Of a stretch of 64,000 nt of DNA, positions 11,787 to 57,020 are shown one piece after another. Made by a program: the position numbers and the translations under genes. The DNA comes from Arcobacter roscoffensis. Its GTDB lineage: Bacteria; Campylobacterota; Campylobacteria; Campylobacterales; Arcobacteraceae. The stretch's first letter is position 1. Each line of letters opens with the position of its first letter. Location of the stretch: the NCBI RefSeq assembly GCF_024267655.1, contig NZ_CP100595.1, positions 1,240,001 through 1,304,000 of the forward strand. The letters are read 5' to 3'. The notes under the pieces were generated by a model that ran no database searches, had not been told where the DNA came from, and worked only from the letters and a program-made list of their open reading frames with translations.

Positions 11787-13269
11787 TAAATCAAGAGAAT
11801 TAAATGTAAGTTTGATTTTTCTTGCTGTATTTGTAATATCTCTATTTTTTGCAGATTTAGAGATCTCTGCTTATGAACCTTTTTTAGAATTAAGTAAATT
11901 TATATCAGGAATAAAAGATATAAATTTTTCTTCAATTGATACTTTACTTGAAGCAGTTTTACAAACTATTTATATTGCAACAATCTCTATAGTTTTATCA
12001 GCTGTATTTGGTTTTATACTATCATTTTATTTTAAATATATGCTAGTTAGAGTTACTTTAGCTTATATAAGAGCAATTCATGAAATATTTTGGGCATTAA
12101 TTTTTCTTCAAATTTTTGGTTTAAATACAATAACAGCTATTTTGGCAATTTCCTTACCTTATAGTGCTATACTTGCAAAAGTTTATGCTGAAATCCTTGA
12201 AGAGTATGATACTTTTGATGAAAAAACTATTTCTCAAAAAGTATCAAAAATATCAGCATTTTTTTATACAAAGTTACCAAATGCTATGCCTCATTTAATC
12301 TCATATACACTATATAGATTTGAGTGTGCTATGAAATCTTCTGCAATTTTGGGTTTTGTAGGAATTGCAACTTTAGGATACTACTTATCTTCATCTTTTA
12401 ATGAAGGTCATTATAATGATGTATGGCTTATGTTAATCATCTTTTATATACTTATTGCAACTATTAAATTTTGGTTTAATAAGTTTACTGTATTGATTTT
12501 ATTTGTAATATCATTTATTCAAATGCCTATGAGTATAAATTCTTTTTCTTATGATAATTTAGTGCGATTTTTAACAGAAGATATTATTCCAAGTCCAATA
12601 AAAAATGATTATACTTTAATAGAAGGCTTTAATTGGTTCTCTAAAATTTTTGTAAATGAAATAGTTCCAGGAGTTTTTAATACTGTAGTTTTAACTCAGA
12701 TTTCTTTAGTAACTACAGCTATTTTAGCACTTATTTTATTCCCAATGATTTCATATAGGTTTGTAAGTAAAACAGGTAGGTTCTTTTCACATATACTCTT
12801 AGTAGTTTTAAGATCAACTCCTGAGTATATTTTAGCTTTCTTATTTTTATCTATTTTTGGTGCTTCTATGCTTCCAGCAGTTCTAGCTTTAATGCTTCAT
12901 AATGGAGCAATTATAGCATTTATAATTGGTAAACAATCAAATGAAATGCAGTATGTATTAGATAAGTCAAGTCATTTAAATCTATATGCTTATGAAGTAC
13001 TACCAAGGCTTTATAGTTCATTTTTAGCTTTTTTATTTTATAGATGGGAAGTAATCATGAGAGAGTCTGCAATACTTGGTATTTTAGGGGTTGCGACTTT
13101 AGGTTTTTATATAGATTCAGCCCTAGCAGATATTAGATTAGATAAAGTTGTAATACTTCTATTTTTCACAGCACTTTTAAATATTTCTATTGATTTAATC
13201 TCAAAAAAAGTAAGGGATTATCTAAAAGCAGATGAAAAACTTATAGGATGTGGCTGCGATTTAAAGTAG
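11773..13269 (+). CDS. Fused double PhnE-type ABC permease
   Basis: 498 residues made of two homologous membrane halves (about 1-245 and 246-490), each with roughly six hydrophobic segments. Each half carries the EAA-loop-like ending: 'RFECAMKSSAILGFVGIATLGYYL' in the first and 'RWEVIMRESAILGILGVATLGFYI' in the second (given here as the matching segments near residues 180-203 and 415-438). PhnE permeases are usually single-domain homodimers of about 270 residues, so this is a tandem fusion making a pseudo-dimer. It overlaps the ATPase gene by 14 bp. The C-terminus ends in CGCDLK. Its 3' end overlaps the converging phosphatase gene by 9 bp. Confidence 0.85.
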   Translation: MLLSSKSRELNVSLIFLAVFVISLFFADLEISAYEPFLELSKFISGIKDINFSSIDTLLEAVLQTIYIATISIVLSAVFGFILSFYFKYMLVRVTLAYIRAIHEIFWALIFLQIFGLNTITAILAISLPYSAILAKVYAEILEEYDTFDEKTISQKVSKISAFFYTKLPNAMPHLISYTLYRFECAMKSSAILGFVGIATLGYYLSSSFNEGHYNDVWLMLIIFYILIATIKFWFNKFTVLILFVISFIQMPMSINSFSYDNLVRFLTEDIIPSPIKNDYTLIEGFNWFSKIFVNEIVPGVFNTVVLTQISLVTTAILALILFPMISYRFVSKTGRFFSHILLVVLRSTPEYILAFLFLSIFGASMLPAVLALMLHNGAIIAFIIGKQSNEMQYVLDKSSHLNLYAYEVLPRLYSSFLAFLFYRWEVIMRESAILGILGVATLGFYIDSALADIRLDKVVILLFFTALLNISIDLISKKVRDYLKADEKLIGCGCDLK

Positions 13270-13944
13270 CACATCTTTTTTTATTAAGTCTTGTTGTATT
13301 ACTTCTAAACTATCTAAATTTAAAGCACTAAGTTTTCCACCATAAACACAAGCTGTATCAATACAAATATAGTTATGTTTTCTTACTATATTTTTTGAAG
13401 ACTCATGACCATATATATTTATATACTCATACTTCTTCCAATCTTTTTCCCAATCCCAATCCCATTCGTCTTTATCTGAAATTCGATTTGTCATCATAGC
13501 ATGAGTTTTTGATTTATCATTTCTTCTTTTAAAGTAGGGCATGCAAAAAGCATGAGTAATAAAATAGTTTTCTATTATTAGGTATTGAGGTAGAGTTTTA
13601 ATCCATTCTAAATGCTCTTTTAGCGTATCTAAATCGTTTTTATAGTTATCAATAGTTACAAGTCCACCCATATACTCTTTTGTATTCCATCTAACCTTAG
13701 CACCATTTAAACAATCTTCTATATTATCTAAAAGATAAAAGTCGTGATTTCCTAAAATACATGGATAATTATTGTTTTTTACAAACTCTATTACTTTTTT
13801 AGAGTAAAGTCCTCTATCACATAAATCTCCCACAAAAATTAAATTAGCATTTGATGGAAGCTTCTTTATCAAAGCTAGCATAGTATAATAACAGCCATGT
13901 ATGTCAGAGATAACATAGGTGTTTTTTAAATCAACCTTTTGCAT
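13261..13944 (-). CDS. PP2A-like serine/threonine protein phosphatase (metallophosphoesterase)
   Basis: 227 residues with the metallophosphoesterase signature: SDIHGCYYTM near the start, GDLCDRG around residue 40, and GNHDFYLL around residue 66; two further histidines (THAF, YGHES) complete the two-metal site. This matches PrpA/PrpB-type bacterial phosphatases that act on phosphoproteins or diadenosine tetraphosphate. It is the last gene of a minus-strand unit and abuts the response-regulator gene at 13944, suggesting co-transcription with the three-component system. Confidence 0.82.
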   Translation of the reverse strand: MQKVDLKNTYVISDIHGCYYTMLALIKKLPSNANLIFVGDLCDRGLYSKKVIEFVKNNNYPCILGNHDFYLLDNIEDCLNGAKVRWNTKEYMGGLVTIDNYKNDLDTLKEHLEWIKTLPQYLIIENYFITHAFCMPYFKRRNDKSKTHAMMTNRISDKDEWDWDWEKDWKKYEYINIYGHESSKNIVRKHNYICIDTACVYGGKLSALNLDSLEVIQQDLIKKDVLL

Positions 13945-14606
13945 TAAATATGCTCTAGGGCAGACTCATTAAATCTATATGTTTTATGTTGTACTTTAAC
14001 TAAAATATTTTTTTCAGCAAGTTCTTTAAAAAGTTTTATAAGTGTTGGTTTTGAAATAGAAATCTCTTCCATAATATCACTGTATGAAGCTGTAAATTGG
14101 TTTTCATTGTCTAGGTTATTGATGATAAATTTTACAATATCAACTTGCTTACTATCTGTGATAGCTGAAATAGTTCTAATTACATTTGAGTTCTTTTGAA
14201 TCTCTTTTTGTTGAACTATAGGAAGCAATACATCATGTAAGCTATTTAGTAACTCTTTTATATTTATTGGTTTTACTATATAGTTTTCTACTTTTAATTT
14301 TATGGCTTCAAGTAAATATTTTGTATCCGTATGAGCTGTTGTTAAAATAGTTGGAATAGTGATATTTTTTTGTTTAATGTGTTTTAAAAAATCAATTCCA
14401 TTTTCATCTTCAAGTAGAATATCAGAGATAATAATATCAACTTTTTTATTTAATAATATATCCATAGCTTCATTAGAAGTTTTTACTGCGTAGATATTGT
14501 TTACAAAGTCTTCTAAAACATCTTTTGTATGTTTCAATAGACTTACATCATCTTCTAAGTATAAAATATTAAATTGTTGTAAGATATTTAAATCTCTGTT
14601 ATTCAT
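13944..14606 (-). CDS. Response regulator with unusual C-terminal helix-turn-helix output
   Basis: 220 residues. The receiver domain (about 8-125) keeps the acidic LEDD pocket, an Asp in IIISDILLEDENG and the Lys in IVKPI. The C-terminal part (about 150-220) reads as a winged helix: FTASYSDIMEEISISKPTLIKLFKELAEKNIL. It resembles HTH domains of replication-initiator or Rep/Crp-like wings rather than OmpR, NarL or NtrC outputs. The gene overlaps the kinase gene upstream by 8 bp, so the two form a pair. Confidence 0.82.
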   Translation of the reverse strand: MNNRDLNILQQFNILYLEDDVSLLKHTKDVLEDFVNNIYAVKTSNEAMDILLNKKVDIIISDILLEDENGIDFLKHIKQKNITIPTILTTAHTDTKYLLEAIKLKVENYIVKPINIKELLNSLHDVLLPIVQQKEIQKNSNVIRTISAITDSKQVDIVKFIINNLDNENQFTASYSDIMEEISISKPTLIKLFKELAEKNILVKVQHKTYRFNESALEHI

Positions 14607-16197
14607 TTATAGCCTCTTTATTATTTGAAATTGGGATTTTTATTGTAAATAAGGAACATTTAAAATTTGTATTATCATTTGGTTTTATTTTATGTACAAT
14701 ATTTTTATATGAAATAGAGCCATTCATATGTTTTTCAATTATTTGCTTTGACATATATAAACCAATACCAGTTCCGGCACTTTTATATTTTGTAGTGTAA
14801 TATGGTTCAAAGATTTTAGGAACAATCTCTTCATTGATTCCTCCACCATTATCTATTAGATTTACTACTACATTATGCTTATATTTATTTACAATTATTT
14901 TTATAATTCTATCATTTTTATTAATAGTACTACATAAAGCATCCTTTGAATTGGAAATGATATTTAAAAATACATGAGATAGTTCATTATAGAAAGTATG
15001 AAGTTCTACATTTTGTTTGATTTCAAATTTTATTTGAATACTTTGTTTTTCTAAAGAGTATTTTGAAAGCTCAATAGAGTGTTCAATACAATCTTTGATT
15101 AAAAACTTACTTCTTTGTTTATTGGGGCTAAAAAAGTTTTTAAAATCATCTAAGGTTTGAGACATGTTATTTGCTAAAAGCAAAGCATCATTTACTTTTT
15201 CATCAACAAAGGTATCAGTTAATTTTCCCATTAACATTTTTGTTTGGAAGCTTTGAACAATCATAGTAATAGATCCTAGTGGTTGTCTCCATTGATGGGC
15301 TATGTTATTTAGCATTTCACCTAAACTTGCAAGTCTAGCTTGTTGAAACATAATTATATCTTTCTTTCTATTTTGAGCAACCTCTTTTGATACTTTTATC
15401 TCTAGGTAAGCATTCAGTTCTGTTAGCTCTTTTGTTTTCTCTTCTACTTTTTGCTCTAAGGTATTATGTAAAGTTTTAAAATTATTGATTATATAAACTG
15501 ACAAGATAATAGAAAATAAAAACACTAAAATAATAGATATAATTGAAAAAATCATGATTATATTGAAAATCTTTTGGGTATTTCTCTTTTCATTTATAGC
15601 AAGGGATAAATCATAATTAATCAAACTTGTAATATAAATAGAAATGGCATTTATTTCTAGATTTAAATTTGCATAATCATAGTCTATTTTATTTTCAATC
15701 ATATAGTTTAAATCATACTTTATTTGAAACATTTTTTTATCAACATTTCTCATAATATTTTTCTTTAGAACTTCATTTTCAAAATAGTTCTCTTCATTTA
15801 TGAAAAACTTTTTTATAAATGAAATTATATAAAATCTATCAGCTTTTTTTTCTAACTCTTCTTTATATGAATTCCAGTTTTTATTTATAAGTTGTTGAGC
15901 TAAAAGTAAAACATCTTTTGCTTGATTTAGTGTTAGTTCATCATTCTCCAAGTCTTTAATAGTAGCTTGAATATTTACATTATAGGTATCTTTTATGTTC
16001 TCTAATTTAATTAAACTTTTTGTTCTTTTATCAAAAAGTACGTCAAAATCTTGTTTGATTGTAAAAGTTGAAATCTGAGATAGAATAACTATACAAATCA
16101 TACCACCAGCAATAATAAAAACTAAAAAAGAAGTTTTGTATTTGAAACTTAAATCATCAAAATATGCAATTATTTTTTTTAATTTACTTATTACCAT
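14599..16197 (-). CDS. Membrane sensor histidine kinase of the HxWRQPL type
   Basis: 532 residues. Two membrane helices (about 20-42 and 207-235) flank a helical periplasmic domain of about 165 residues. A coiled coil leads to the phospho-acceptor His in LNNIAHQWRQPLGS, the 'HWRQPL' kinase type common in Campylobacterota. The HATPase domain has an N box (NIISNSKDAL), DNGGGI and TGIGLYMSK. It overlaps the regulator gene by 8 bp and the binding-protein gene by 7 bp, so the three are translated as one unit. The helical sensor domain probably receives its signal through the co-encoded binding protein. Confidence 0.87.
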   Translation of the reverse strand: MVISKLKKIIAYFDDLSFKYKTSFLVFIIAGGMICIVILSQISTFTIKQDFDVLFDKRTKSLIKLENIKDTYNVNIQATIKDLENDELTLNQAKDVLLLAQQLINKNWNSYKEELEKKADRFYIISFIKKFFINEENYFENEVLKKNIMRNVDKKMFQIKYDLNYMIENKIDYDYANLNLEINAISIYITSLINYDLSLAINEKRNTQKIFNIIMIFSIISIILVFLFSIILSVYIINNFKTLHNTLEQKVEEKTKELTELNAYLEIKVSKEVAQNRKKDIIMFQQARLASLGEMLNNIAHQWRQPLGSITMIVQSFQTKMLMGKLTDTFVDEKVNDALLLANNMSQTLDDFKNFFSPNKQRSKFLIKDCIEHSIELSKYSLEKQSIQIKFEIKQNVELHTFYNELSHVFLNIISNSKDALCSTINKNDRIIKIIVNKYKHNVVVNLIDNGGGINEEIVPKIFEPYYTTKYKSAGTGIGLYMSKQIIEKHMNGSISYKNIVHKIKPNDNTNFKCSLFTIKIPISNNKEAINE

Positions 16198-20384: not shown

Positions 20385-23216
20385 ATGTCAGCAAATACAT
20401 ATGAAACTCTAAATGCAAAAGTAGGTAGAAGGTCATTTATGAAAATGGCTGCAGTAGCTACTGCATTTGGTGTTACATCGTCTTTTGCAAGTACTACAGC
20501 AACAAGAAAAGCTACTGAGGAAGAGATTAAAAATCCATTCCCTGGTTCAAAGATGGTTAGATCTATCTGTACAGCTTGTTCAGTTGGTTGTGGTGTAGAA
20601 GCGGAAGTACAAAATGGTGTATGGGTAAGACAAGAAGTAGCTCAAGATCACCCTGTATCACTTGGAGGTCACTGTTGTAAAGGTGCCGATATGATTGATA
20701 TGGTTAGATCGGAAGTTAGAGTTAAACACCCAATGGTTAAAAGAGGTGGAAAATGGCAAAGAATTTCTTGGGATGAAGCATTAGACAATATCGCTAATAA
20801 GCTTGAATCTTTAAGACAAACAGATGGGCCAGATTCAACAATGTTTTTAGGATCAGCGAAATTTAATACTGAGCAATCATATTACTTTAGAAAATTCGCT
20901 GCAATGTTTGGAACTAATAATATAGATCACCAAGCTAGAATTTGACATAGCTCAACAGTTGCCGGGGTGGCAAACACATGGGGTTATGGTGCTATGACAA
21001 ATTCTTTAGGGGATATTCAAAACTCTAAGGCGATCATTATTTTTGGAGCAAATCCAGCGGTTAATCACCCAGTTGGTTTCCAGCACTTCTTAAAAGCAAA
21101 AGAGAGAAACAACGCAAAAATTATTGTTGTTGATCCAAGATTTACTAAAACTGCTGCAAAAGCAGATTTATATGCAGGTTTAAGACCTGGTACAGACATT
21201 CCATTTATGTATGGTATGTTAAATATTATTTTTGAAAACGGATGGCATGACGAAAACTTTATTAAAGATAGAGTTTACGGAATGGAAGACATTAAAAAAG
21301 AGGCTAAAAACTGGCCACTTGATAGAGTTGCTGATGTAACTGGTGTTGATGCTGATTTAATTATGCAAATCACTAAGTTATATGCTCAAAATTCTCCTGG
21401 TACATTAGTATGGGCTATGGGTTTAACGCAACACAATAATGGTTCTTCAAATACAAGAATTGCTCCAATCGTTCAATTAGCTCTTGGTAACATGGGTATT
21501 GAAGGTGGTGGAACAAACATCTTAAGAGGTCACGATAACGTTCAGGGTGCTACTGATATGTGTTGTTTATCACACACATTACCAGGATACTATGGATTAA
21601 GTGATGGTTCATGGAAATATTTCGCAAAAATGTGGAATGTTGATTATGAATGGTTAAAAGGAAGATTTAAAGCTCCTGAATGGATGAATAAAAAAGGTTT
21701 CACACTTGCTAGATGGTGGGCTGGAGTTCTTGGTGGTAATCCAGGAGAAGATGCTATTCATAATGCAGGTACAAACTTAAAAGCTTTATTTGTTATGGCA
21801 AATGGTATTACATCAACTGCACAACAAGTAAAAGTAAAAGAAGCCTTAGATAATTTAGATATCGCAGTATTTGTTGACCCATTTGTAAATGAGGGTGCAA
21901 TTATTACTGATAAGCAAGATGATGTTTATATCTTACCTGCTGCAACTCAATTTGAAACTAGTGGTTCTGTAACTGCTACAAATAGATCAGCACAGTGGAG
22001 AGATAAAATTATTGAGCCAATGTATGAGTCAAAAACTGACCACGACATTATGTTTGAATTAGCTAAAAGACTTGGATTCTATGATGAATTAACAGCAGGT
22101 ATGTTAGTTAGAGAGAATAAAAAAGAGTTTACTTGGCCTGAAGATTGTACAGATGAAATTGCTAGAACAATCAAAACAATTGGTTTAACTGGTTGGACGG
22201 CTGCAAGACTTAAAAAACATCAAAAGAACTGGCATATGTTCGATGAAGTATCTATGAGAGGATACGGAGAAATGGCTGGTGAGTACTATGGTTTACCATG
22301 GCCTTGTTGGACTGAGGATCATTGTGGATCTCCATTATTATACAACATTAACAGAAGTGTTAAAGATGGTGGTATGGGATTCAGAAATAGATTTGGACTT
22401 GAGCACGACGGTGAAGATTTATTAGCAGGAAAAGGTTCAGCACCTAAAAACTCTGTAAATAAAGATGGTTATCCTGAAATTACAAGAGATAACATTGAAG
22501 AAGTACTTAAGATTAAGTTAACAGATGAAGAGAAAAAGAAAATTGGTAAAAACTGGAAAGTTGATACTTCAAATATTATTGCTGAAAAATGTATGGAAAG
22601 AGGAATTGCTCCTTATGGAAATGCAAAAGCAAGAGCAAAAGTATGGACATTCGCAGACCCAATTCCTTTACATAGAGAGCCATTACACTCTCCAAGACAA
22701 GATTTAGTTGGAAAATACCCAACGTTTGCAGATAAGAAAGATCACTATAGAGTTGATACTAGATATATCTCTGAGCAAAATGCAGAAGAATGGGTTAAAG
22801 AATTCCCAATTAACTTAGTTACGGGAAGACTTGTAAATATGAATGGTGCTGGTATGGAAAATAGAGCATCTAAGTATTTAGCTAAATTAACTCCAGAAAT
22901 GTTCTGTGATATTAATCCAGACTTAGCTGGAAGACACGGTATTAGAGATGGTGCTATGATGTGGATTCATTCGCCAAACAATACTAAGATTAAAGTTAAA
23001 GCAAAATACAGCCACAGTGTAGCTGATGATAGAGTATTCTTGCCATTCCACTTCTCGGGTGTAATGCAAGGTGTAGATTTATCTCACAAATACCCTGAGG
23101 GAACACTACCATTTGCAATCGGTGATAATGCAAATATTGTAACTAACTATGGTTATGATATTGTTACGCAGATCCCTGAAACAAAAGGTGGTTTATGTAG
23201 AATTGAAAGAGCCTAG
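20385..23216 (+). CDS. fdhA: Formate dehydrogenase catalytic subunit, selenocysteine-containing (Sec187)
   Basis: 943 residues when the in-frame TGA at 20943-20945 is read as selenocysteine; otherwise two pieces (20385-20945 and 20967-23216) appear. The signal peptide is twin-arginine (GRRSFMKMAAVATAFG), so the enzyme is exported folded. The N-terminal [4Fe-4S] site uses Cys62, Cys65, Cys69 and Cys97 or Cys98. Sec187 is followed by His (U-H-S-S-T), as in other formate dehydrogenases, and ligates Mo or W. The C-terminal dinucleotide-binding domain has VTGRLVNMNGAGME. It oxidises formate to CO2 in the periplasm and passes electrons to FdhB and FdhC. Tungstate uptake genes nearby suggest a W-cofactor is possible. 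A SECIS-like hairpin follows the TGA. Confidence 0.97.
20959..20973 (+). promoter_or_regulatory. Candidate SECIS hairpin in fdhA
   Basis: Starting 13 bases after the TGA, TTGCC pairs with GGCAA around a GGGGT loop. Distance, small stem and a G-rich loop ending in U are what SelB-binding bacterial SECIS elements show in other formate dehydrogenase genes. Confidence 0.65.
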
Positions 23217-24801: not shown

Positions 24802-24845
24802 AAAAGCTATCATGTTTCCCCTTTGGGAAACTGATTTGCTTTTTC
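24801..24845 (+). terminator. Terminator of the fdh operon
   Basis: An inner GTTTCCC / GGGAAAC stem (24814-24831) sits inside an outer GAAAAGC / GCTTTTTC stem, and the 3' arm supplies the T-run. It begins at the last base of the fdhC stop codon and separates fdhABC from the fdhD unit. Confidence 0.75.
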
Positions 24846-24858
24846 TATTTATTTACTA

Positions 24859-24877
24859 ATATGCAAAACTAGCATAT
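24859..24877. promoter_or_regulatory. Candidate ModE-like operator 1
   Basis: Inverted repeat ATATGC-AAAACTA-GCATAT, with flanking A and T extending the symmetry to 7 bp per arm. It is one of three near-identical sites and lies 55-73 bp upstream of fdhD, on the upstream side of a -10-like TATTAT. Confidence 0.6.
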
Positions 24878-24883
24878 TAGAAT

Positions 24884-24898
24884 TTTGATATTATCAAA
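24884..24898. promoter_or_regulatory. Promoter-proximal palindrome between operators
   Basis: A perfect 15-bp palindrome TTTGATA-T-TATCAAA lies between the two ATATGC repeats and shares its last base with the second. It contains TATTAT (24889-24894), a plausible -10 box. It resembles an FNR site (TTGAT-N4-ATCAA) but has only three central bases, so FNR binding is doubtful. Confidence 0.35.
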
Positions 24899-24916
24899 TA
24901 TGCAAACTTAGCATAT
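24898..24916. promoter_or_regulatory. Candidate ModE-like operator 2
   Basis: Inverted repeat ATATGC-AAACTTA-GCATAT, again with matching A/T flanks, 39 bp centre-to-centre from the first copy and 16 bp before the fdhD start. If the -10 is TATTAT at 24889-24894, this site covers the transcription start, a repressor position. Confidence 0.6.
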
Positions 24917-24931
24917 TAAGAGAGAAGAGAT

Positions 24932-25720
24932 ATGGACAACACTAAATATTTAAAAACAGTAGTAATAGACAAACTTATAGAAAATGAAGCAACTGAAATC
25001 GAAGATGTGACGATTGATGAGTCACGATTAAACTTATATTTAAATGGAGAAAAAACCATATCAATGATGACAATTCCAAAAGATCAAGATGCACACGCCA
25101 TTGGCTTCTTGATGAGTGAGAATGTAATTTCTTCTATTGATGATATTGAAGATATAAAAATAAGTGAAGAGGGATTAAGAGTTGATGTAAAAGCGAAAAT
25201 CAATGAAGAATCACTTCAAAATTTATATAAAGAAAAAACACTTACTTCTGGTTGCGGTGGGGGAGTTACAGGTACAGAAGCTACTGAGCTTGTAATTCCT
25301 TTTAATCAAACGGCATTTAAAATTAAACCCCAAACAATTTCAGATGAAATTAGAATATTTTACAGAGAAAGTGAACTATATAATCTAACAGGTTGTGTTC
25401 ATAAAGCAATGATTTACTTACTTGATGGAACAACAGTAACAGCAGAAGATATAGGAAGACACAATGCAATTGATAAAGCAATTGGTAAGTGTAAATTACA
25501 AAAACTTGACACTATAAAGTCAGTTTTATTTGTATCTGGAAGATTAAGTTCAGAGATGGTTACAAAAGCAGTAATGCACAGAATTCCTATAATTGTTTCA
25601 AGAACAGCACCTACTTATCTTGGTGTTCAAACAGCACATAAACATGGAATAACACTTATTGGTTTTGCAAGGGGTAAAAAGATGAATCTTTATACTCACC
25701 AAGGAAGAATTGATGTCTAG
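24932..25720 (+). CDS. fdhD: FdhD, sulfurtransferase for formate dehydrogenase
   Basis: 262 residues. FdhD carries sulfur from a cysteine desulfurase to the Mo/W cofactor of formate dehydrogenase. Family marks are HAIGFLMSENVI, 'TSGCGGGVTG', 'TGCVHKAMI', 'AEDIGRHNAIDKAIG' and 'SGRLSSEMVTKA'. Cys108 in SGCGGG matches the first cysteine of the E. coli CxxC pair; the second is a glycine here. The gene starts a separate unit after the fdh terminator, under the two ATATGC-type operators. It overlaps the next gene by 8 bp. Confidence 0.95.
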   Translation: MDNTKYLKTVVIDKLIENEATEIEDVTIDESRLNLYLNGEKTISMMTIPKDQDAHAIGFLMSENVISSIDDIEDIKISEEGLRVDVKAKINEESLQNLYKEKTLTSGCGGGVTGTEATELVIPFNQTAFKIKPQTISDEIRIFYRESELYNLTGCVHKAMIYLLDGTTVTAEDIGRHNAIDKAIGKCKLQKLDTIKSVLFVSGRLSSEMVTKAVMHRIPIIVSRTAPTYLGVQTAHKHGITLIGFARGKKMNLYTHQGRIDV

Positions 25721-26114
25721 TTTAGATGAAGTTCAAAAAGAACTTTTATTTACAAATTTAGATGAAGAAGGAAAACTATCTTGTCTAAAGGCTTTTAAGG
25801 TTGCAAGACTTATTGGAAAGCATCCAAAACAAATGGCAAAAATTACAAATGAGTATGGTGTTAAAATCACTAACTGTGAGTTAGGTGTTTTTGGGAAACT
25901 GAGATTTGAAAGTTCTAGTGATAAGGTTTACAATAGATTACAAGAGAATTACATGGGGCATAAAAGATTAGAGTGTAAAGTTTTATGGGATGAAGCACAA
26001 AAATCAACACTTAATACTGTGGGCTCAACTGTAAAAAATTCTGATATTCAAGTAACTCATTGTCAGCTAGGAATATTTAGAGAAAGAAGAGGAAACCATG
26101 GAAGTAAAAGTTAA
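25713..26114 (+). CDS. Uncharacterised four-cysteine, internally duplicated protein
   Basis: 133 residues from the ATG at 25713 (AAGGAAG six bases upstream); a TTG one codon earlier is less likely. I know no function. The protein is two copies of one motif. The first runs from Cys24 (LSCLKAFKVARLIG) to Cys55 (VKITNCELGVFG); the second from Cys88 (LECKVLWDEAQ) to Cys117 (IQVTHCQLGIF). Each half ends in 'CxLGxF'. A paralogue at 56604-57020 keeps all four cysteines and this architecture. The gene overlaps fdhD by 8 bp and the ModE-like gene by 17 bp, so it is tightly tied to Mo/W-cofactor genes. Metal, sulfur or oxyanion binding by the paired cysteines is a reasonable inference only. Confidence 0.75.
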   Translation: MSSLDEVQKELLFTNLDEEGKLSCLKAFKVARLIGKHPKQMAKITNEYGVKITNCELGVFGKLRFESSSDKVYNRLQENYMGHKRLECKVLWDEAQKSTLNTVGSTVKNSDIQVTHCQLGIFRERRGNHGSKS

Positions 26115-26481
26115 AGTTTGGATTGATGATGACGAAAACAACTTGGTTTTTGGTGGTGGTAAAACAGAAGTTTTAAAATATATAGATCAAACTGGTTCTA
26201 TTTCTAAAGCAGCTAAAATCGTAGGTATGAACTATAAAAAAGCATGGACTCATATAAAAATACTTGAAGAGCATATAGAAGATGAACTTGTACATACTAA
26301 AAAAGGTAGGGGTGAGGATAGTGGAAGTTCTCTTACTCCAAAAGCAAGGGAAATTGTTGATACTTATGAAATTCTACAAGAAGATATAAAAGAGTATGCA
26401 AAAAAAAGATTTGATGAGCTGTTTTTGAAAGATAATAAAGAGATTATAAAAGTAAAAGGTGAATGTTGTGATAAAGCTTAA
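26098..26481 (+). CDS. ModE-like molybdate/tungstate-responsive regulator, DNA-binding domain only
   Basis: 127 residues forming a winged helix of the ModE N-terminal type: VLKYIDQTGSISKAAKIVGMNYKKAWTHIK is the helix-turn-helix region (about 24-53), and a basic wing GRGEDSGSSLTP follows. E. coli ModE is about 260 residues with two C-terminal Mop domains for molybdate; these are absent, as in the Campylobacter ModE-like protein. It overlaps the genes on both sides. Three ATATGC-N7-GCATAT sites in this unit are likely its targets, implying autoregulation. The last residues (GECCDKA) carry two adjacent cysteines. Confidence 0.88.
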   Translation: MEVKVKVWIDDDENNLVFGGGKTEVLKYIDQTGSISKAAKIVGMNYKKAWTHIKILEEHIEDELVHTKKGRGEDSGSSLTPKAREIVDTYEILQEDIKEYAKKRFDELFLKDNKEIIKVKGECCDKA

Positions 26482-27457
26482 CTCTTTGCAGTATACAAAT
26501 ATGCAAAATTTGCATATAAATAGTGATTTGTCATTAAGTGTATTAAGTAATAATGAAAGCTATTTAGATTTAAAAAAAGAGTTTATATCTAAATATTCTA
26601 AAACTAATTTAACAACTTTTAGTTTTGATAAAGATGGTTTTTTAGGACTTTTTTTAGAGCTTTCAAAAAAAGGAAAGATAGCTGTTTGTAAAGGTGAAAC
26701 ACATAGTGTTTATGAAGCAGCAAAGACATTTGAGTCTTTAGGTTTTGAACTTTTATGGCTGGATTTATTAAAAAATGGAAAAGTAGATACAAAAAAAATA
26801 GAAAGTGAAAATATTGACTTTTTATTTCTTTCATCATATGTGATGGACACTTTTGTAAAAACAAATTTAGAAGAAATCAAAGAACTTACCAGTGCAAAGA
26901 TTATATCAAATGCAAGTGCAAGTTTTAGTGAACATAGTGATGCTGTATATTTTGACTCTTATAAATTAACTGGTTTTACTACATCTGGTGTTTTACTTTT
27001 TGATGGTGAATTATTTGAAGAAAAGTCTTTTGGTTTTATAGATAGTATTGCTGTAAATACTATATTTGAAGCTTTAAAAGCTCAAAGTTTTGAAAGCTCA
27101 ATAAAACACAGTTTTAAAGATGAACTTGAAAATGCACTTGGAGATAATCTATACTATTTTGTTGATTCAAATGATACTTTAGATTATTCATTTCATTTTG
27201 CATTAAAAGGCATAAAAGCAAGAGAGCTTATAAGAACTCTTAGTTTAGATGAAATACATATTACAAATGGTGAAGGATGTAGCTTAGGTTTATCAAAACC
27301 TTCAAGAATTATCCAAGCTATGGGCTATGATGAAACTACAAGTAGAAATGCTTTGTCTCTTACTTTTTGTGAAAAGTTAGATGCAAATATTATTGAAAAA
27401 GTAGCAAAAATAATTGCTAAAAAATATAGACAAATAAAGGTTTTAAATGAGCAATAA
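26459..27457 (+). CDS. Divergent cysteine desulfurase-like PLP protein
   Basis: 332 residues from a GTG start that overlaps the ModE-like gene by 23 bp; an ATG at 26501 is an alternative. It follows the NifS/IscS fold: a His in KGETHSVYEAAKTFESLGFEL, Lys169 in FDSYKL at the PLP-lysine position, and Cys274 in NGEGCSLGLSKPSRIIQAMG at the persulfide position. It is about 70 residues shorter than IscS. The usual PLP-binding Asp in 'DAxQS' appears as Asn151 (SNASASF), and the residue before Lys is Tyr rather than His. Placed among fdhD and moeA, it could feed sulfur to FdhD or handle selenium; activity is uncertain given the changes. Confidence 0.7.
   Translation: MNVVIKLNSLQYTNMQNLHINSDLSLSVLSNNESYLDLKKEFISKYSKTNLTTFSFDKDGFLGLFLELSKKGKIAVCKGETHSVYEAAKTFESLGFELLWLDLLKNGKVDTKKIESENIDFLFLSSYVMDTFVKTNLEEIKELTSAKIISNASASFSEHSDAVYFDSYKLTGFTTSGVLLFDGELFEEKSFGFIDSIAVNTIFEALKAQSFESSIKHSFKDELENALGDNLYYFVDSNDTLDYSFHFALKGIKARELIRTLSLDEIHITNGEGCSLGLSKPSRIIQAMGYDETTSRNALSLTFCEKLDANIIEKVAKIIAKKYRQIKVLNEQ
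26499..26517. promoter_or_regulatory. Candidate ModE-like operator 3
   Basis: Inverted repeat ATATGC-AAAATTT-GCATAT; this copy is fully palindromic over 19 bp around one central base. It lies within the 5' end of the desulfurase-like gene if the GTG start is used, or spans the alternative ATG at 26501. It suggests a second, internal control point ahead of the desulfurase-moeA-tup genes. Confidence 0.5.
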
Positions 27458-28694
27458 ATTAAGATATTTAGATTTTGAAGAAGCAGTTAAAAGAAGTTTA
27501 GATTTAGCAAAGGCTACAAGTTTTACAGAGATTATTCCTTTAGCAAATGCAATTGGTAGAGTTGTTAGTGAAGATGTACTTTGTGTTAAGAATCTTCCTG
27601 CTTTTAATAACTCAGCAATGGATGGTTTTGCAATTAAAGCAAGTGATGCAGGAAAAACACTAAACATAAATAAAGTGATTTATGCAGGTGATAAGGGTGA
27701 AGCTGTAAAAGAATCACTTTGGGATAATGAATGTTACAAGATTATGACAGGTGCAAAAGTACCTAGTGATGTTGATACGATTATTCCTATTGAAAACTGC
27801 TTTGATGTAACAGATAAAACAGTTAGAGTTCCTGAAAATATAAAAGAGGGTGCAAATTTAAGACTAAAAGGTGAAGAGCAAAAAGAAGGAAATGTTTTAT
27901 TTGAAAAAGGTGAGATTATTACTTCTTCTCATGTGACACTTTTAGCATCACAAGGTCTTACAATGATTAAGGTTTTCAAAAAAATCTCAATTGCTGTTGT
28001 ATCAACTGGAAATGAGTTAAAAGAGCCATGGGAAAGTAGTGATGAAGAAGAGATTTATAACTGTAATTCTTATGCTTTAGTGTCATTACTTACTGAAAAT
28101 GGTTTTGATGCAACTTACAGTGGAGTAATACCTGATAGCTTAGAAGCTTCAAAAGAGTTTATTTCAAATATGAAAAACTATGATGTAATTATTACAACTG
28201 GTGGTATTTCTATGGGAGATGCTGATTTTGTAGGTCAAGCTTTTTTAGATAATGGTTTAGAAACTGCATTTCATGGAGTAAATGTAAAACCTGGACGTCC
28301 AATAATGATGGGAAAAATGGAAAATACTATTGTGATGTGTTTACCAGGTAACCCACTTACTGCGATGGTAAATATGCACTTATTTGCAGTACCTGTTTTA
28401 CATAAACTACAAGGAAGTAGTAGTTTTTATCATGATGTGAATTTTGCTATGAATCATCAAGATTTCAAAACAAAGCAAGGAAGAGTAAATGTAGTACTTG
28501 GAACTTGTGAAAATGGAGGTTTTAAGGTAACAAGAAATAATAAATATGGTTCAGGAATGATAACAGCACTGTATGAGAGTAATTCTATACTTGTGACTAG
28601 GGAAGAGACATCAGGTATAGATGTAGGTCAAGAGGTTTATGTTATTAAATTTAATAACAAATTAGTAAAAAAACAAACAAATATATTTAATTAG
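27447..28694 (+). CDS. moeA: Molybdopterin molybdotransferase MoeA
   Basis: 415 residues. MoeA inserts molybdate or tungstate into adenylylated molybdopterin. Marks are LPAFNNSAMDGFAIKA near residue 50, 'YKIMTGAKVPSDVDTIIPIE', 'GANLRLKGEEQKEGN', the TTGGISMGDADFV segment and LPGNPLTAMV. The ATG overlaps the previous gene by 11 bp. Downstream lies tungstate uptake, so this copy may prefer tungsten. No domain is missing. Confidence 0.93.
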   Translation: MSNKLRYLDFEEAVKRSLDLAKATSFTEIIPLANAIGRVVSEDVLCVKNLPAFNNSAMDGFAIKASDAGKTLNINKVIYAGDKGEAVKESLWDNECYKIMTGAKVPSDVDTIIPIENCFDVTDKTVRVPENIKEGANLRLKGEEQKEGNVLFEKGEIITSSHVTLLASQGLTMIKVFKKISIAVVSTGNELKEPWESSDEEEIYNCNSYALVSLLTENGFDATYSGVIPDSLEASKEFISNMKNYDVIITTGGISMGDADFVGQAFLDNGLETAFHGVNVKPGRPIMMGKMENTIVMCLPGNPLTAMVNMHLFAVPVLHKLQGSSSFYHDVNFAMNHQDFKTKQGRVNVVLGTCENGGFKVTRNNKYGSGMITALYESNSILVTREETSGIDVGQEVYVIKFNNKLVKKQTNIFN

Positions 28695-28717: not shown

Positions 28718-29533
28718 ATGATGAAGAAAACTTTAGTAACTTTAGGATTAAGTGCAGCATTAGTATCTGGATTAAACGCAAAAGATTTAATGATGGCTAC
28801 AACAACAAGTACAGATAATACTGGATTATTAGACTATTTAGCACCAAAATTTGAAAAAGAGACTGGTACAACTTTAAAATGGGTTGCAACAGGAACTGGA
28901 AAAGCTTTAAAAATGGGTGGAAATTGTGATGTAGATATTTTATTTGTACATGCACCTGGTGCTGAAAAGAAATTTGTTGGAACAGGTTACGGTGTAAATA
29001 GAACTCAAGTTATGTATAACGATTTTGTAGTTATTGGACCAAAAGCAGACCCTGCAATGGTAACAGGTATGCAAACAGCAGCAGCACTTAAAAAAATTAA
29101 TGATAAGGAAGCTAAATTCTTCTCAAGAGGTGATAACTCTGGTACAAACAAAAAAGAGATTAAACTTTGGAAAGAAGCTTTAACTAAAGCTCCTGAAAAA
29201 GCATCTTGGTATGTTCAAACTGGTCAAGGTATGTTAAGAACTATTAACATGGCTGCTGAAAAGGGTGGATATACAATGACAGATAGAGGAACTTGGATTA
29301 AATATCAATCACAAAAAGCTGATAAAAATACAATGAAAATTGTAGTTGAAGGTGATAAAACACTATTTAATCAATACTCTGTTGTATCAATTAATAAAGA
29401 AAAATGCTCAAATGTTAAACCAGAATTAGCAGCACAGTTTACAAGCTGGATTATTAAGCCTGAAACTCAAAAAACAATTGCTGATTTTAGATTATTAGGA
29501 AAAGCTTTATTTATTCCTAATGCTGGTAAATAA
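28718..29533 (+). CDS. tupA: Tungstate ABC transporter substrate-binding protein
   Basis: 271 residues with a signal peptide (LVTLGLSAALVSGLNA). The mature protein starts with the TupA hallmark MATTTSTDNTGLLDYL and continues with 'DVDILFVHAPGAEKKFV', 'YNDFVVIGP' and 'SRGDNSGTNKKE', the anion-binding loops of TupA. TupA binds tungstate with very high affinity in the periplasm. Two ATGs stand in tandem at 28718 and 28721 after AAAAAGGAAG. No terminator separates it from moeA. Confidence 0.93.
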   Translation: MMKKTLVTLGLSAALVSGLNAKDLMMATTTSTDNTGLLDYLAPKFEKETGTTLKWVATGTGKALKMGGNCDVDILFVHAPGAEKKFVGTGYGVNRTQVMYNDFVVIGPKADPAMVTGMQTAAALKKINDKEAKFFSRGDNSGTNKKEIKLWKEALTKAPEKASWYVQTGQGMLRTINMAAEKGGYTMTDRGTWIKYQSQKADKNTMKIVVEGDKTLFNQYSVVSINKEKCSNVKPELAAQFTSWIIKPETQKTIADFRLLGKALFIPNAGK

Positions 29534-29563
29534 ATAAAAAATTAAACTTAGGATTAAAACGGG

Positions 29564-30259
29564 ATGAATCTTTTTACTGATGGCTTTAATGAAGCGATAG
29601 AACTACTTGTATCTGGAAATGAGAGTGTTTATTCTGCGATTATTACGACAGTTACTGTATCTTCTTGGTCTTTACTTATAAGCTTACTAATAGGTCTTCC
29701 TTTAGGCTTTGCTTTGGGATATTATAACTTCCCAGGCAAGGCAGTGGTTAGAACTATTGTAGATACACTTCTTGCTTTACCAACTGTTGTTATTGGTTTA
29801 GTTGCTTATACAATGTTATCAAGGGTAGGACCTTTTGGTGAGTATGATTTACTTTTTTCTCAACAAGCAATAATAATAGGACAAATAGTTTTAGGTTTGC
29901 CTATTATTATTGCTTTAACAGCCACGCAAGTTGAAGCAGTTGATAAAAGACTTTATATCTCTTTGAAAGGTTTAGGTGCTACATCTTTTCAGATATTAAA
30001 TGCAACTTTAGTAGAAGCTAGATTTGGAATTATGACAGCGGCAGTTACAGCATATGGACGAATTGTGACTGAAATTGGTATTTCTATGATGGTTGGTGGA
30101 AATATCAAATATCACACAAGAACTGTTACTACTGCAATTGCTTTAGAGACTGGTAAAGGTGAGTTTGTAACTGGAATTGCATTAGGTCTTGTGCTTTTTG
30201 CTGTTGCTCTTATGGTAAATATTGCATTGTCAATGCTTAAAAGGAAATGGACACAATGA
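29564..30259 (+). CDS. tupB: Tungstate ABC transporter permease
   Basis: 231 residues with about five to six membrane helices. The EAA-like loop is at about 140-165 (SLKGLGATSFQILNATLVEARFG). It opens with an amphipathic segment (GFNEAIELLVSG) common to TupB. It lies 30 bp after tupA and overlaps tupC by 13 bp. Confidence 0.92.
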   Translation: MNLFTDGFNEAIELLVSGNESVYSAIITTVTVSSWSLLISLLIGLPLGFALGYYNFPGKAVVRTIVDTLLALPTVVIGLVAYTMLSRVGPFGEYDLLFSQQAIIIGQIVLGLPIIIALTATQVEAVDKRLYISLKGLGATSFQILNATLVEARFGIMTAAVTAYGRIVTEIGISMMVGGNIKYHTRTVTTAIALETGKGEFVTGIALGLVLFAVALMVNIALSMLKRKWTQ

Positions 30260-31275
30260 GTTTATATAAATTAAGTAATGTTGAACAATACTATGATGGA
30301 AGAAGAGTTTTATCAATAGATAATCTAACTTTAGATGAAAATCAAATAATAGGATTTTTTGGTCCAAATGGAAGTGGTAAATCAACACTCTTTTCTCTTT
30401 TATCTTTTATAGATAAACCAAGCTTAGGAAATGTATCCTTTAATGGCTTATGTAATAGCAAACTTGATTTTGAAACAAGACAAAGTGTAGTAATGGTACC
30501 TCAAAATCCATATCTTTTAAAAAGAACAGTTTATGAAAATATAGTTTATGGTTTGAAACTTAGAAAACAAACAGATAATTTAGATGAAAAAGTCTTAGAA
30601 GCTTTGAGTTTAGTAGGACTTGATAACTCTTTTTCAAAAAGAAAATGGAGTCAACTTTCAGGTGGGGAGTCTCAAAGAGTAGCACTTGCTGCAAGACTTA
30701 TATTAAAACCAAAAGTTCTGATACTAGATGAACCAACAACAGGAGTTGATACAAATTCTGCGCAGTTGATAAAAGAAGCAATTTTAACAGCAAAACAAAA
30801 GTACAACACAACTATTTTAATCTCAAGTCATGATCATAACTGGCTTAATCATATCTGTGATAGGAAAGTTGCTTTATTTAATGGAAGTTTAGTTGAAGCA
30901 GGGGGAGTTAATCTTCTTTTTTCACCTTGGCAAAAAAATGAAGATGGAAATTTAGTAAAGCATTTTATAGATGGGCAAAGATTAGAAATAAAAAATAGTA
31001 AAAGTAAAAAAAGAGATGCAGTTGCTATGATAAATTGTGATTCTATAAATATATGTAGAGTAGATTGTGAAGAAATGAAAGATGAAAATACATTAATTGC
31101 AGAAGTAAGCTCTATTCAACAGCTTAATGGTTTAGATGATTTATTAATAGAGTTTACAATTTCAGGAATTAGTTTTAACTGTAAAATTTCAAGAAAACTA
31201 ATGCAAGAACAAAGTTTTCTACCAGGCGATAAAATCAATGTAAATATTGATACTACTAAGGTTTGTTGGATTTAA
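30247..31275 (+). CDS. tupC: Tungstate ABC transporter ATP-binding protein with C-terminal TOBE/Mop-like domain
   Basis: 342 residues. The nucleotide-binding domain (about 1-225) has GPNGSGKST, LSGGESQRVA and VLILDEPT. A C-terminal segment (about 258-342; INICRVDC, 'IAEVSSIQQLNGLDDLLIEF', 'LPGDKINVNIDTTKVCWI') looks like a TOBE/Mop-type oxyanion-binding domain. Such a domain can give feedback inhibition of uptake by cytoplasmic tungstate or molybdate. This is of interest because the local ModE-like regulator lacks such a domain. Confidence 0.9.
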   Translation: MDTMSLYKLSNVEQYYDGRRVLSIDNLTLDENQIIGFFGPNGSGKSTLFSLLSFIDKPSLGNVSFNGLCNSKLDFETRQSVVMVPQNPYLLKRTVYENIVYGLKLRKQTDNLDEKVLEALSLVGLDNSFSKRKWSQLSGGESQRVALAARLILKPKVLILDEPTTGVDTNSAQLIKEAILTAKQKYNTTILISSHDHNWLNHICDRKVALFNGSLVEAGGVNLLFSPWQKNEDGNLVKHFIDGQRLEIKNSKSKKRDAVAMINCDSINICRVDCEEMKDENTLIAEVSSIQQLNGLDDLLIEFTISGISFNCKISRKLMQEQSFLPGDKINVNIDTTKVCWI

Positions 31276-31341
31276 GAAGCTTCTTTTAATTGAATTAATA
31301 AACAGATTAGTATATAGTTATTAAAAATTTTGGAGATAACT

Positions 31342-31734
31342 ATGAATGAACAAATAAAACACTATGAAGATAAGCTAAAGTATGAGATTGATTCATGGGA
31401 TTTAAATATTGCATTAAAAGAAGATAAAAATATTATTGTAATTGATGCAAGATCTAATGAGGCTTATGAGTATGAAAGAATTCCTAATTCTATAAATTTA
31501 CCCCACAGAACAATGACTGAAGAAACTTTAATAAACTTAGATAAAGATATAATTTATATTACTTATTGTGATGGAATAGGATGTAATGCTTCTACTAAAG
31601 GGGCTTTAAATATGGCGAAATTAGGTTTTAAAGTAAAAGAGTTAATAGGTGGACTAGACTGGTGGATTAGAGATGGTTACCAAACAGATGGTAAAAATGC
31701 AAGAAAAGCTAGTAGTATCTCTTGTGGATGTTAA
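31342..31734 (+). CDS. Rhodanese-like protein with CxxxxC active loop
   Basis: 130 residues from the ATG at 31342, preceded by TTGGAGATAAC; a TTG at 31330 would place the ribosome-binding site inside the gene. The rhodanese fold shows IVIDARSNEAYEYERIPNSINLPH and the active-site loop YCDGIGCNAS with the catalytic Cys, then GFKVKELIGGLDWW. The tail ends SISCGC, a CxC that could accept persulfide or bind metal. Rhodaneses move sulfane sulfur, and some handle selenium. It follows tupC by 66 bp and precedes a second rhodanese and a selenoprotein. Confidence 0.82.
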   Translation: MNEQIKHYEDKLKYEIDSWDLNIALKEDKNIIVIDARSNEAYEYERIPNSINLPHRTMTEETLINLDKDIIYITYCDGIGCNASTKGALNMAKLGFKVKELIGGLDWWIRDGYQTDGKNARKASSISCGC

Positions 31735-31779
31735 TCTTATATCAGTATAATAATAAATATTTAATACTAAAGGACTTTG

Positions 31780-32127
31780 ATGAATGAAAATATGATTTAT
31801 ATTCTTATCATATTTATAGCTTACTTTGCTTATAAAAAATACATGCAATATAAAGTCTTAAAACTAGTTCCTGAATTACTTAAAAAAGGTGGACTTATTA
31901 TAGATGTTAGAACAGAAGATGAGTTTAATTTGGCCCATAAAGATGGGAGTATAAATATTCCATTGAATAAACTTAATAGTAGTACTGATAAATTAGATAA
32001 AACTAAACCTATTATCGTTTGTTGTGCTAGTGGAAGTAGAAGTGGTATAGCAAAGCATACTTTAAAAGCTCAAGGTTTCAAAGATGTTCACAATGCAGGA
32101 ACATGGAAAGCACTTAGAAAGTTTTAA
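31780..32127 (+). CDS. Membrane-anchored rhodanese-like protein
   Basis: 115 residues from the ATG at 31780 (AAAGGA six bases upstream). A membrane helix at about 5-18 (MIYILIIFIAYFAYKKY) precedes a rhodanese domain with LIIDVRTEDEFNLAHKDGSINIPLNKL and the catalytic loop VCCASGSRSG, then GFKDVHNAGTWKAL. The active site may face either side of the membrane depending on topology; with a positive tail after the helix the domain is probably cytoplasmic. It precedes the SelW-like gene by 49 bp. Confidence 0.82.
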   Translation: MNENMIYILIIFIAYFAYKKYMQYKVLKLVPELLKKGGLIIDVRTEDEFNLAHKDGSINIPLNKLNSSTDKLDKTKPIIVCCASGSRSGIAKHTLKAQGFKDVHNAGTWKALRKF

Positions 32128-55961: not shown

Positions 55962-56600
55962 TTATATAGTTTCTAGTAAGCTTTCAAGTTCATCTAGTTT
56001 GTTTATAAAGAAATCAGCCTTTGAAAAATCATGTTTTACTGTAAAGTCATTGTGTACTATAGCACATTGAATATTAGCATTAACAGCAGAGTTTAGACCT
56101 CTTTGTGAATCTTCTACCACTATAGCTTCTTCTTTTTTTGCCTTAAATTTTTTAAGACCTGCTAGGTATGGGTCAGGGTAGGGTTTAGCTCTTTTATACT
56201 CTTCAACGCAAAGACTAAATTCCATGTAATCAATAATACCTCTATTTTTATGAATAAGATCAAAGTCAACTCTTCTCGAAGTTGTAACTATTCCCATTTT
56301 ATATTTTTTTGATAGTTTTTCTAAAGTTTTTTTAACATTTGGAATTTCAATATTTTTAGTTTTCAAGAAATCTTGATAATAATCGTCTCTTTGAAATCTT
56401 TTATTATCAACTATTTTTTTTGAAAAGCCTTTTTCAAAAGCTAATTCCCAAGCTGTACCACCTCTTGCCATGATTTCTAGGTATACATCAAGTCCTAAAG
56501 TAATTCCCAGTTCTTTTAAAGCTATTCTATTAGCTTCATAGTACCACTTTTCTGTTTCTACTAATACTCCATCGTTATCAAATAGTATATATTTTTTCAT
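55962..56600 (-). CDS. HAD-superfamily phosphatase (beta-phosphoglucomutase-like)
   Basis: 212 residues with motif I FDNDGVLVETE (the second aspartate of DxD present), a helical cap with YEANRIALKELGI, motif II TTSRR and motif IV VVEDSQRGLNSA. It fits sugar-phosphate phosphatases or mutases; lack of the classical DxDGxx(T/V) with D-D spacing variation does not exclude activity. It is 3 bp downstream of the four-cysteine paralogue, so both may share a transcript. Confidence 0.8.
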   Translation of the reverse strand: MKKYILFDNDGVLVETEKWYYEANRIALKELGITLGLDVYLEIMARGGTAWELAFEKGFSKKIVDNKRFQRDDYYQDFLKTKNIEIPNVKKTLEKLSKKYKMGIVTTSRRVDFDLIHKNRGIIDYMEFSLCVEEYKRAKPYPDPYLAGLKKFKAKKEEAIVVEDSQRGLNSAVNANIQCAIVHNDFTVKHDFSKADFFINKLDELESLLETI

Positions 56601-56603
56601 ATA

Positions 56604-57020
56604 CTACTTTTTTCTCACCTTATCAAATTTGTCAAACTCTTCATCATAAAAAACACCTAATTGACAATGAGTTACTTTAATATCAGAATTTTTAATAGAT
56701 GAGCCAACTTTTTTTAGAGTTGAACCTTTCTCTTGTGCTAATTTCCAAGCAATCTCACACTGAACTTTTTTGTTGTTTGCAGAGTTTTTAGCTAATGTAT
56801 TATAAATATCATCATTCATTTGTGAGAATTTTAGTTTACCAAATACACCTAGTTCACAATTTGTAATTTTAATATTCATGTCTTTTGCAATTTGGGCCAT
56901 ATTTTTAGGTTTTATACCCATAAGTTTTGCAGCTTTAAAAGCTCTTATACACGATAATTCACCGTTTTCATTTAGATTGTTTAAAACTAACTGTTTTTGT
57001 GTAGAATCAAGTTTTATCAT
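56604..57020 (-). CDS. Four-cysteine duplicated protein, paralogue of the fdh-locus member
   Basis: 138 residues. It matches the protein at 25713-26114 along its whole length: ELSCIRAFKAAKLMG with Cys24, KITNCELGVFGKLKF with Cys55, VQCEIAWKLAQ with Cys88, and KVTHCQLGVF with Cys119. The same two-fold repeat is present. It differs by a lysine-rich tail (KFDKVRKK). It sits with a HAD phosphatase rather than with fdhD, showing that the family is not restricted to one operon. Confidence 0.75.
   Translation of the reverse strand: MIKLDSTQKQLVLNNLNENGELSCIRAFKAAKLMGIKPKNMAQIAKDMNIKITNCELGVFGKLKFSQMNDDIYNTLAKNSANNKKVQCEIAWKLAQEKGSTLKKVGSSIKNSDIKVTHCQLGVFYDEEFDKFDKVRKK

Follow-up and report, generated by a model that had tools for sequence, protein, structure and literature searches.

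A four-cysteine protein with an internal duplication, encoded between fdhD and a ModE-like gene in Arcobacter roscoffensis: candidate input subunit of a split Mo/W regulator

A formate dehydrogenase gene cluster and its four-cysteine protein

The window considered here, a stretch of 64 000 nucleotides from contig NZ_CP100595.1 of A. roscoffensis, holds a formate dehydrogenase (FDH) gene cluster (Table 1). The fdhA frame is interrupted by a TGA codon followed by HSSTVAGVANTWG; since the genome also carries a tRNA-Sec, the product is a selenocysteine FDH. The terminator-like hairpin situated after fdhC suggests that fdhD begins a new transcription unit. It is followed by the gene of the four-cysteine protein, by a gene for a ModE-like winged helix-turn-helix (wHTH) protein, by a NifS/IscS-like gene, by a gene which, from sequence knowledge, we take to be moeA-like, and by genes presumed on the same grounds to be tupABC-like. 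The NifS-like protein keeps a cysteine loop, GEGCSLG. Beyond the tup genes lie two further ORFs (31330-32127), one with a rhodanese domain and the other rhodanese-like.

Table 1. Features of the FDH region and of the second domain copy, in window coordinates
Feature	Coordinates	Strand	Remark
fdhA, selenocysteine FDH	20385..23216	+	read through in-frame TGA 20943-20945
Terminator-like hairpin after fdhC	24814..24831	+	2 terminator-like sites found vs 0.3 expected
Palindrome AATATGCAAAACTAGCATATT, proposed operator 1	24858..24878	.	conserved in relatives with wHTH
Palindrome AATATGCAAACTTAGCATATT, proposed operator 2	24897..24917	.	conserved in relatives with wHTH
fdhD, FDH accessory sulfurtransferase	24932..25720	+	
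Stand-alone, duplicated four-cysteine domain protein, proposed input subunit	25713..26114	+	133 aa, ATG start
ModE-like wHTH protein, proposed DNA-binding subunit	26098..26481	+	127 aa, no TOBE/Mop domain
NifS/IscS-like PLP protein, divergent	26459..27457	+	after split domain and wHTH genes
Palindrome AATATGCAAAATTTGCATATA, proposed operator 3	26498..26518	.	near start of NifS-like gene; one mismatch
moeA-like gene (presumed), same cluster	27447..28694	+	order conserved in relatives
tupABC-like tungstate/anion ABC transporter genes (presumed)	28718..31275	+	ABC_tran domain in third ORF
Paralog of four-cysteine protein	56604..57020	-	51-53% identical; adjoins HAD hydrolase gene

The four-cysteine ORF shares 8 nt with fdhD and 17 nt with the ModE-like gene. 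Its cysteines occupy positions 24, 55, 88 and 117, the members of the first pair lying 31 residues apart and those of the second 29, and each half of the protein carries a CxLGxF box (C55ELGVF60 and C117QLGIF122). A profile-to-profile comparison showed the halves to be homologous (Prob 98.3, E 1.2e-14, score 65.8; the best score among 20 column-shuffled control profiles was 15.9). We collected 119 distinct frames from fetched loci as a set of relatives; the sequence numbers given below should not be read as numbers of independent events. Equivalents of all four cysteines were invariant (119/119), and deviations from the CxLGxF boxes were confined to single sequences; a fifth cysteine (CxLGC), present in 109 of the 119, is missing from the window copy. 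The ORF itself, the two-fold repeat, the cysteine spacing, the boxes and both gene overlaps had been described in the initial annotation, and all of them are borne out.

The same annotation had found no match to a known family, and this agrees with searches of Pfam, NCBIfam and PDB sequences, made with single proteins as well as with alignments, which returned sub-threshold matches only. Two candidate families were considered and rejected, KH_1 (14.0 bits against a gathering cut-off of 21.5) and XRN1_D2_D3 (19.6 bits against 21.8).

The AlphaFold2 model of the four-cysteine domain alone is a confident one (pLDDT 89.4, pTM 0.78). Each half is built as helix-strand-helix-helix-strand; in the model the first cysteine of a half opens the second helix, and the second cysteine falls just past the last strand. 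Foldseek and VIA found for the domain weak homeodomain-like three-helix matches only (VIA Z ≤5.5; Foldseek E ≥0.2); the lack of a clear match does not by itself establish a new fold.

Relatives of the domain and fusion to a ModE-type partner

By profile search, the domain was present in 145 of 397 Campylobacterota genomes. A shallow scan of genome contigs found three close Arcobacter-type relatives only, and no relatives were found in the plasmids and viral contigs searched. As far as was searched, with the deep search directed at Campylobacterota alone, a regulator with this domain provisionally appears to be particular to this phylum.

Fusion was seen in 75 of the 119 frames: here the domain occupies the N-terminal half of a ~240-310 aa protein, and the ModE-like wHTH known from the window occupies the C-terminal half; in 27 further frames the wHTH is encoded by the next gene. 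The fused form is found in most other Campylobacterota families possessing the domain (Campylobacteraceae, f20, f6, f9 and f15), and the split form in Arcobacteraceae and in one f16 genome. The wHTH protein of the window matched NCBIfam model TIGR00637 with an E-value of 1.5e-19, at a score below the curated cut-off, and among the TOBE and HTH families of Pfam it matched HTH only. We characterized the wHTH as ModE-type on the basis of matches to TIGR00637 or to structures of ModE, obtained for the neighbouring protein and its fused relatives. No TOBE domain was found in the window wHTH or in the 40 fused proteins scanned; as a positive control, the separate canonical ModE of the host genome did match TOBE. 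In a model of a fused protein, known structures were matched by the wHTH part only, ModE first, and with a pTM of 0.48 the arrangement of the domains is uncertain.

Fused and split forms made two separate groups in a FastTree phylogeny, consistent with one fission or fusion. Copies with no adjacent wHTH gene were scattered through the split group; thus, on more than one occasion, the wHTH probably disappeared or the domain was copied to a place away from it. Nine such copies have a NifS-like gene alongside. Another set is represented by the second of the two domain copies of the host genome, also located in the window: paired with a HAD hydrolase gene (55962-57020), it belongs to an arrangement that recurs in several Arcobacteraceae genera, apart from fdhD and modE. 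These HAD-linked paralogs form one clade within the split group and have neither a wHTH nor a NifS-like gene alongside. As the nine NifS-like-linked copies and the HAD-linked paralogs lack an adjacent wHTH gene, the domain can apparently act without this partner.

The usual gene order is fdhA-fdhB-fdhC-fdhD-domain/wHTH, to which split loci add NifS-like and moeA genes and often tup or mod genes. The tie to fdhD, on which the initial annotation had relied, extends to other genomes, with fdhD immediately upstream of the domain in 96 of 119 loci. Among the 397 genomes, 124 had both the domain and fdhD, 21 had the domain only, 68 had fdhD only and ~184 had neither (Fisher p 3.5e-31, relatedness uncorrected). 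Fourteen fused copies do not adjoin fdhD; moreover, some fused copies occur in genomes where fdhD was not detected, and at three such loci (L156-L158) no FDH gene was seen nearby. Among the loci examined, the NifS-like gene accompanies the split four-cysteine gene or comes immediately after fdhD, and never adjoins the fused form. In a Campylobacteraceae subgroup (L069, L130-L139), fdhA/fdhB-type genes are followed directly by the fused regulator, and no adjoining fdhD was found.

The fused form includes a protein already studied in Campylobacter jejuni. Both published primers for Cj1507c (PMC7011364) match locus L122 exactly, 200 bp apart as published, and the matches fall within the N-terminal part of the fused frame found there, in which none of the four cysteines is missing. 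As in the window, fdhD lies upstream; the N-terminal half of Cj1507c is the four-cysteine domain, and the C-terminal half corresponds to the wHTH of the window. The make-up of Cj1507c, a duplicated CxLGxF domain plus a wHTH, is therefore present in the window, spread over two overlapping genes; unlike in C. jejuni, the two halves are separate genes, followed by NifS-like, moeA and tup genes. In the account given in PMC7011364, with reference to Taveirne 2009, Cj1507c represses the operons of the Mo and W transporters and has no metal-binding domain, a protein-protein binding site being named instead. Deletion of cj1507c abolishes FDH activity, which is brought back by complementation, and a role for Cj1507c beyond repression was proposed by the authors (PMC11237541).

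Candidate operator palindromes

Two copies of the palindrome AATATGC-N7-GCATATT are located in the window between the terminator-like hairpin and fdhD. We counted occurrences within 1.4 kb, allowing up to one mismatch. Where a wHTH gene is present, the palindrome was found at 25 of 27 split loci, at 24 of them just upstream of fdhD; it was found at none of the eight fdhD-adjacent loci with no neighbouring wHTH gene, one of which (L143) is a frame-disrupted fused gene. For palindromes just upstream of fdhD, the association has a Fisher p of 7e-6, relatedness uncorrected. In other genomes the palindromes are also found in front of torD/fdhA and of a second FdhA-like gene. In the fused clade the exact palindrome occurs at only 8 of 61 fdhD-adjacent loci; hence, the operator in this clade may have changed or may lie elsewhere. 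We propose that the palindrome is the site of the split regulator, an assignment made from its co-occurrence with the wHTH gene.

One more palindrome of the host genome, ATATGCAACTATTGCATAT, was set aside: it precedes a MarR-type gene and is also found in genomes with no adjacent wHTH, which points to the site of another regulator.

Two observations concern FDH genes located behind palindromes elsewhere. At locus L188, the gene of a second FdhA-like molybdoenzyme (12885-15143) has a palindrome ahead and an in-frame stop, possibly marking a second selenoprotein. At L190 and L191, two or more FDH gene sets lie side by side, one of them behind two palindromes, an arrangement that may reflect separate control of FDH isoenzymes.

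A split Mo/W regulator and its alternatives

Three lines of evidence favour one reading over the others: the domain is fused to the wHTH, palindrome and wHTH occur together, and Cj1507c has the reported role described above. On this reading, the four-cysteine protein is probably the input subunit of a split Mo/W regulator that governs FDH and the uptake of tungstate. In such a Mo/W-responsive regulator the four-cysteine domain would be the input half and the TOBE-less wHTH the DNA-binding half. In Arcobacteraceae, both subunits together would bind the AATATGC-N7-GCATATT sites that precede fdhD and, in relatives, also those in front of other FDH genes, thereby controlling FDH, cofactor sulfuration and tungstate uptake according to metal or cofactor status. 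This status would be detected by the duplicated domain; most simply, the four invariant thiolates could ligate a metal, a cluster or a thio-ligand, and detection would shift the DNA affinity of the wHTH. We infer the binding of one subunit to the other, the use of the operator, the ligand and the direction of the switch. The initial annotation had suggested that the protein might be the sensor which the truncated ModE-like regulator lacks. The partnership half of this idea holds well, given the fusions, the missing TOBE domain and the reported action of Cj1507c on Mo/W uptake; the sensing of a metal oxyanion is a putative function.

One could also think of the domain as an FDH maturation factor, with its cysteines passing persulfide from the NifS-like protein to FdhD, or with the domain handling bis-MGD on FdhD; the fused form would then couple maturation to transcription. 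Its frequent adjacency to fdhD fits this idea, as does the presence of a NifS-like gene with split copies outside the HAD-linked clade and not with fused ones. The same can be said of the loci where the domain is retained with fdhD and a NifS-like gene while wHTH and palindrome are absent, and of the loss of FDH activity without Cj1507c, for which, as noted, a role beyond repression was proposed (PMC11237541). However, FdhD/NifS-like pairs exist together with an FDH operon and no domain (L145-L147, L152, L153, L163), the f13 FDH operons examined have neither the domain nor a NifS-like gene, and the domain is found in the 21 genomes with fdhD undetected, including the three loci with no FDH gene nearby. 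We regard this explanation as unlikely, though worth keeping in mind. A sulfur-relay partnership with FdhD was the second guess of the initial annotation and is the weaker one; it gains from the loci that keep the domain with fdhD and NifS-like genes but no wHTH, and it loses from pairs without the domain and from the 14 fused copies that do not adjoin fdhD and the 21 genomes with fdhD undetected. A double role of the domain, in regulation and in sulfur relay, is possible.

The cysteines might instead hold a structural zinc, with the domain serving as an extra HTH-like unit for DNA binding or protein docking and some other partner doing the sensing. The confident model (pLDDT 89) does show an HTH-like three-helix unit in each half, with a weak likeness to homeodomains, and the protein-protein binding site attributed to Cj1507c by Taveirne et al., as cited in PMC7011364, would suit docking. 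Yet the domain is retained where there is no adjacent wHTH, and no other sensor gene is constantly linked to it; furthermore, L, G and F of the boxes show almost the same invariance as the cysteines, and this could point to something beyond a structural staple. All this makes a purely structural site rather improbable. That the frame is an accidental or ordinary conserved ORF with no regulatory or maturation meaning, as its lack of a database family might suggest, is hardly credible in view of the invariant residues, the conserved duplication and the gene context that stays constant across the phylum.

Canonical ModE controls Mo uptake. The split regulator shares with ModE of Escherichia coli (PDB 1b9m, 1o7l) a related N-terminal wHTH (Foldseek E 3e-6). 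Unlike ModE, the split and fused regulators have no TOBE/Mop domain, the unrelated cysteine domain stands N-terminal and not C-terminal to the wHTH, and the candidate operator differs. The sulfur transfer from IscS to FdhD in E. coli resembles the present locus in that a cysteine-desulfurase-like gene is found beside fdhD; to our knowledge, the E. coli system has no counterpart of the four-cysteine protein, and the FdhD/NifS-like pair also occurs without it.

If the split-regulator reading is true, ModE-type regulators would include a second, unrelated solution to Mo/W sensing. One could speculate, more tentatively, that the domain senses Mo/W or cofactor-sulfur status through its thiolates: a duplicated four-cysteine HTH-like unit that might have replaced the Mop/TOBE sensor of ModE across one phylum, would work as a separable subunit and, in some lineages, would act with FdhD and a NifS-like protein and no adjacent DNA-binding partner. 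For metal sensing by Cj1507c, a domain with invariant residues can now be put forward as the candidate sensor, together with a candidate operator. The split form of Arcobacteraceae, where the sensor candidate and the DNA-binding part are distinct proteins, allows the two to be purified and mixed.
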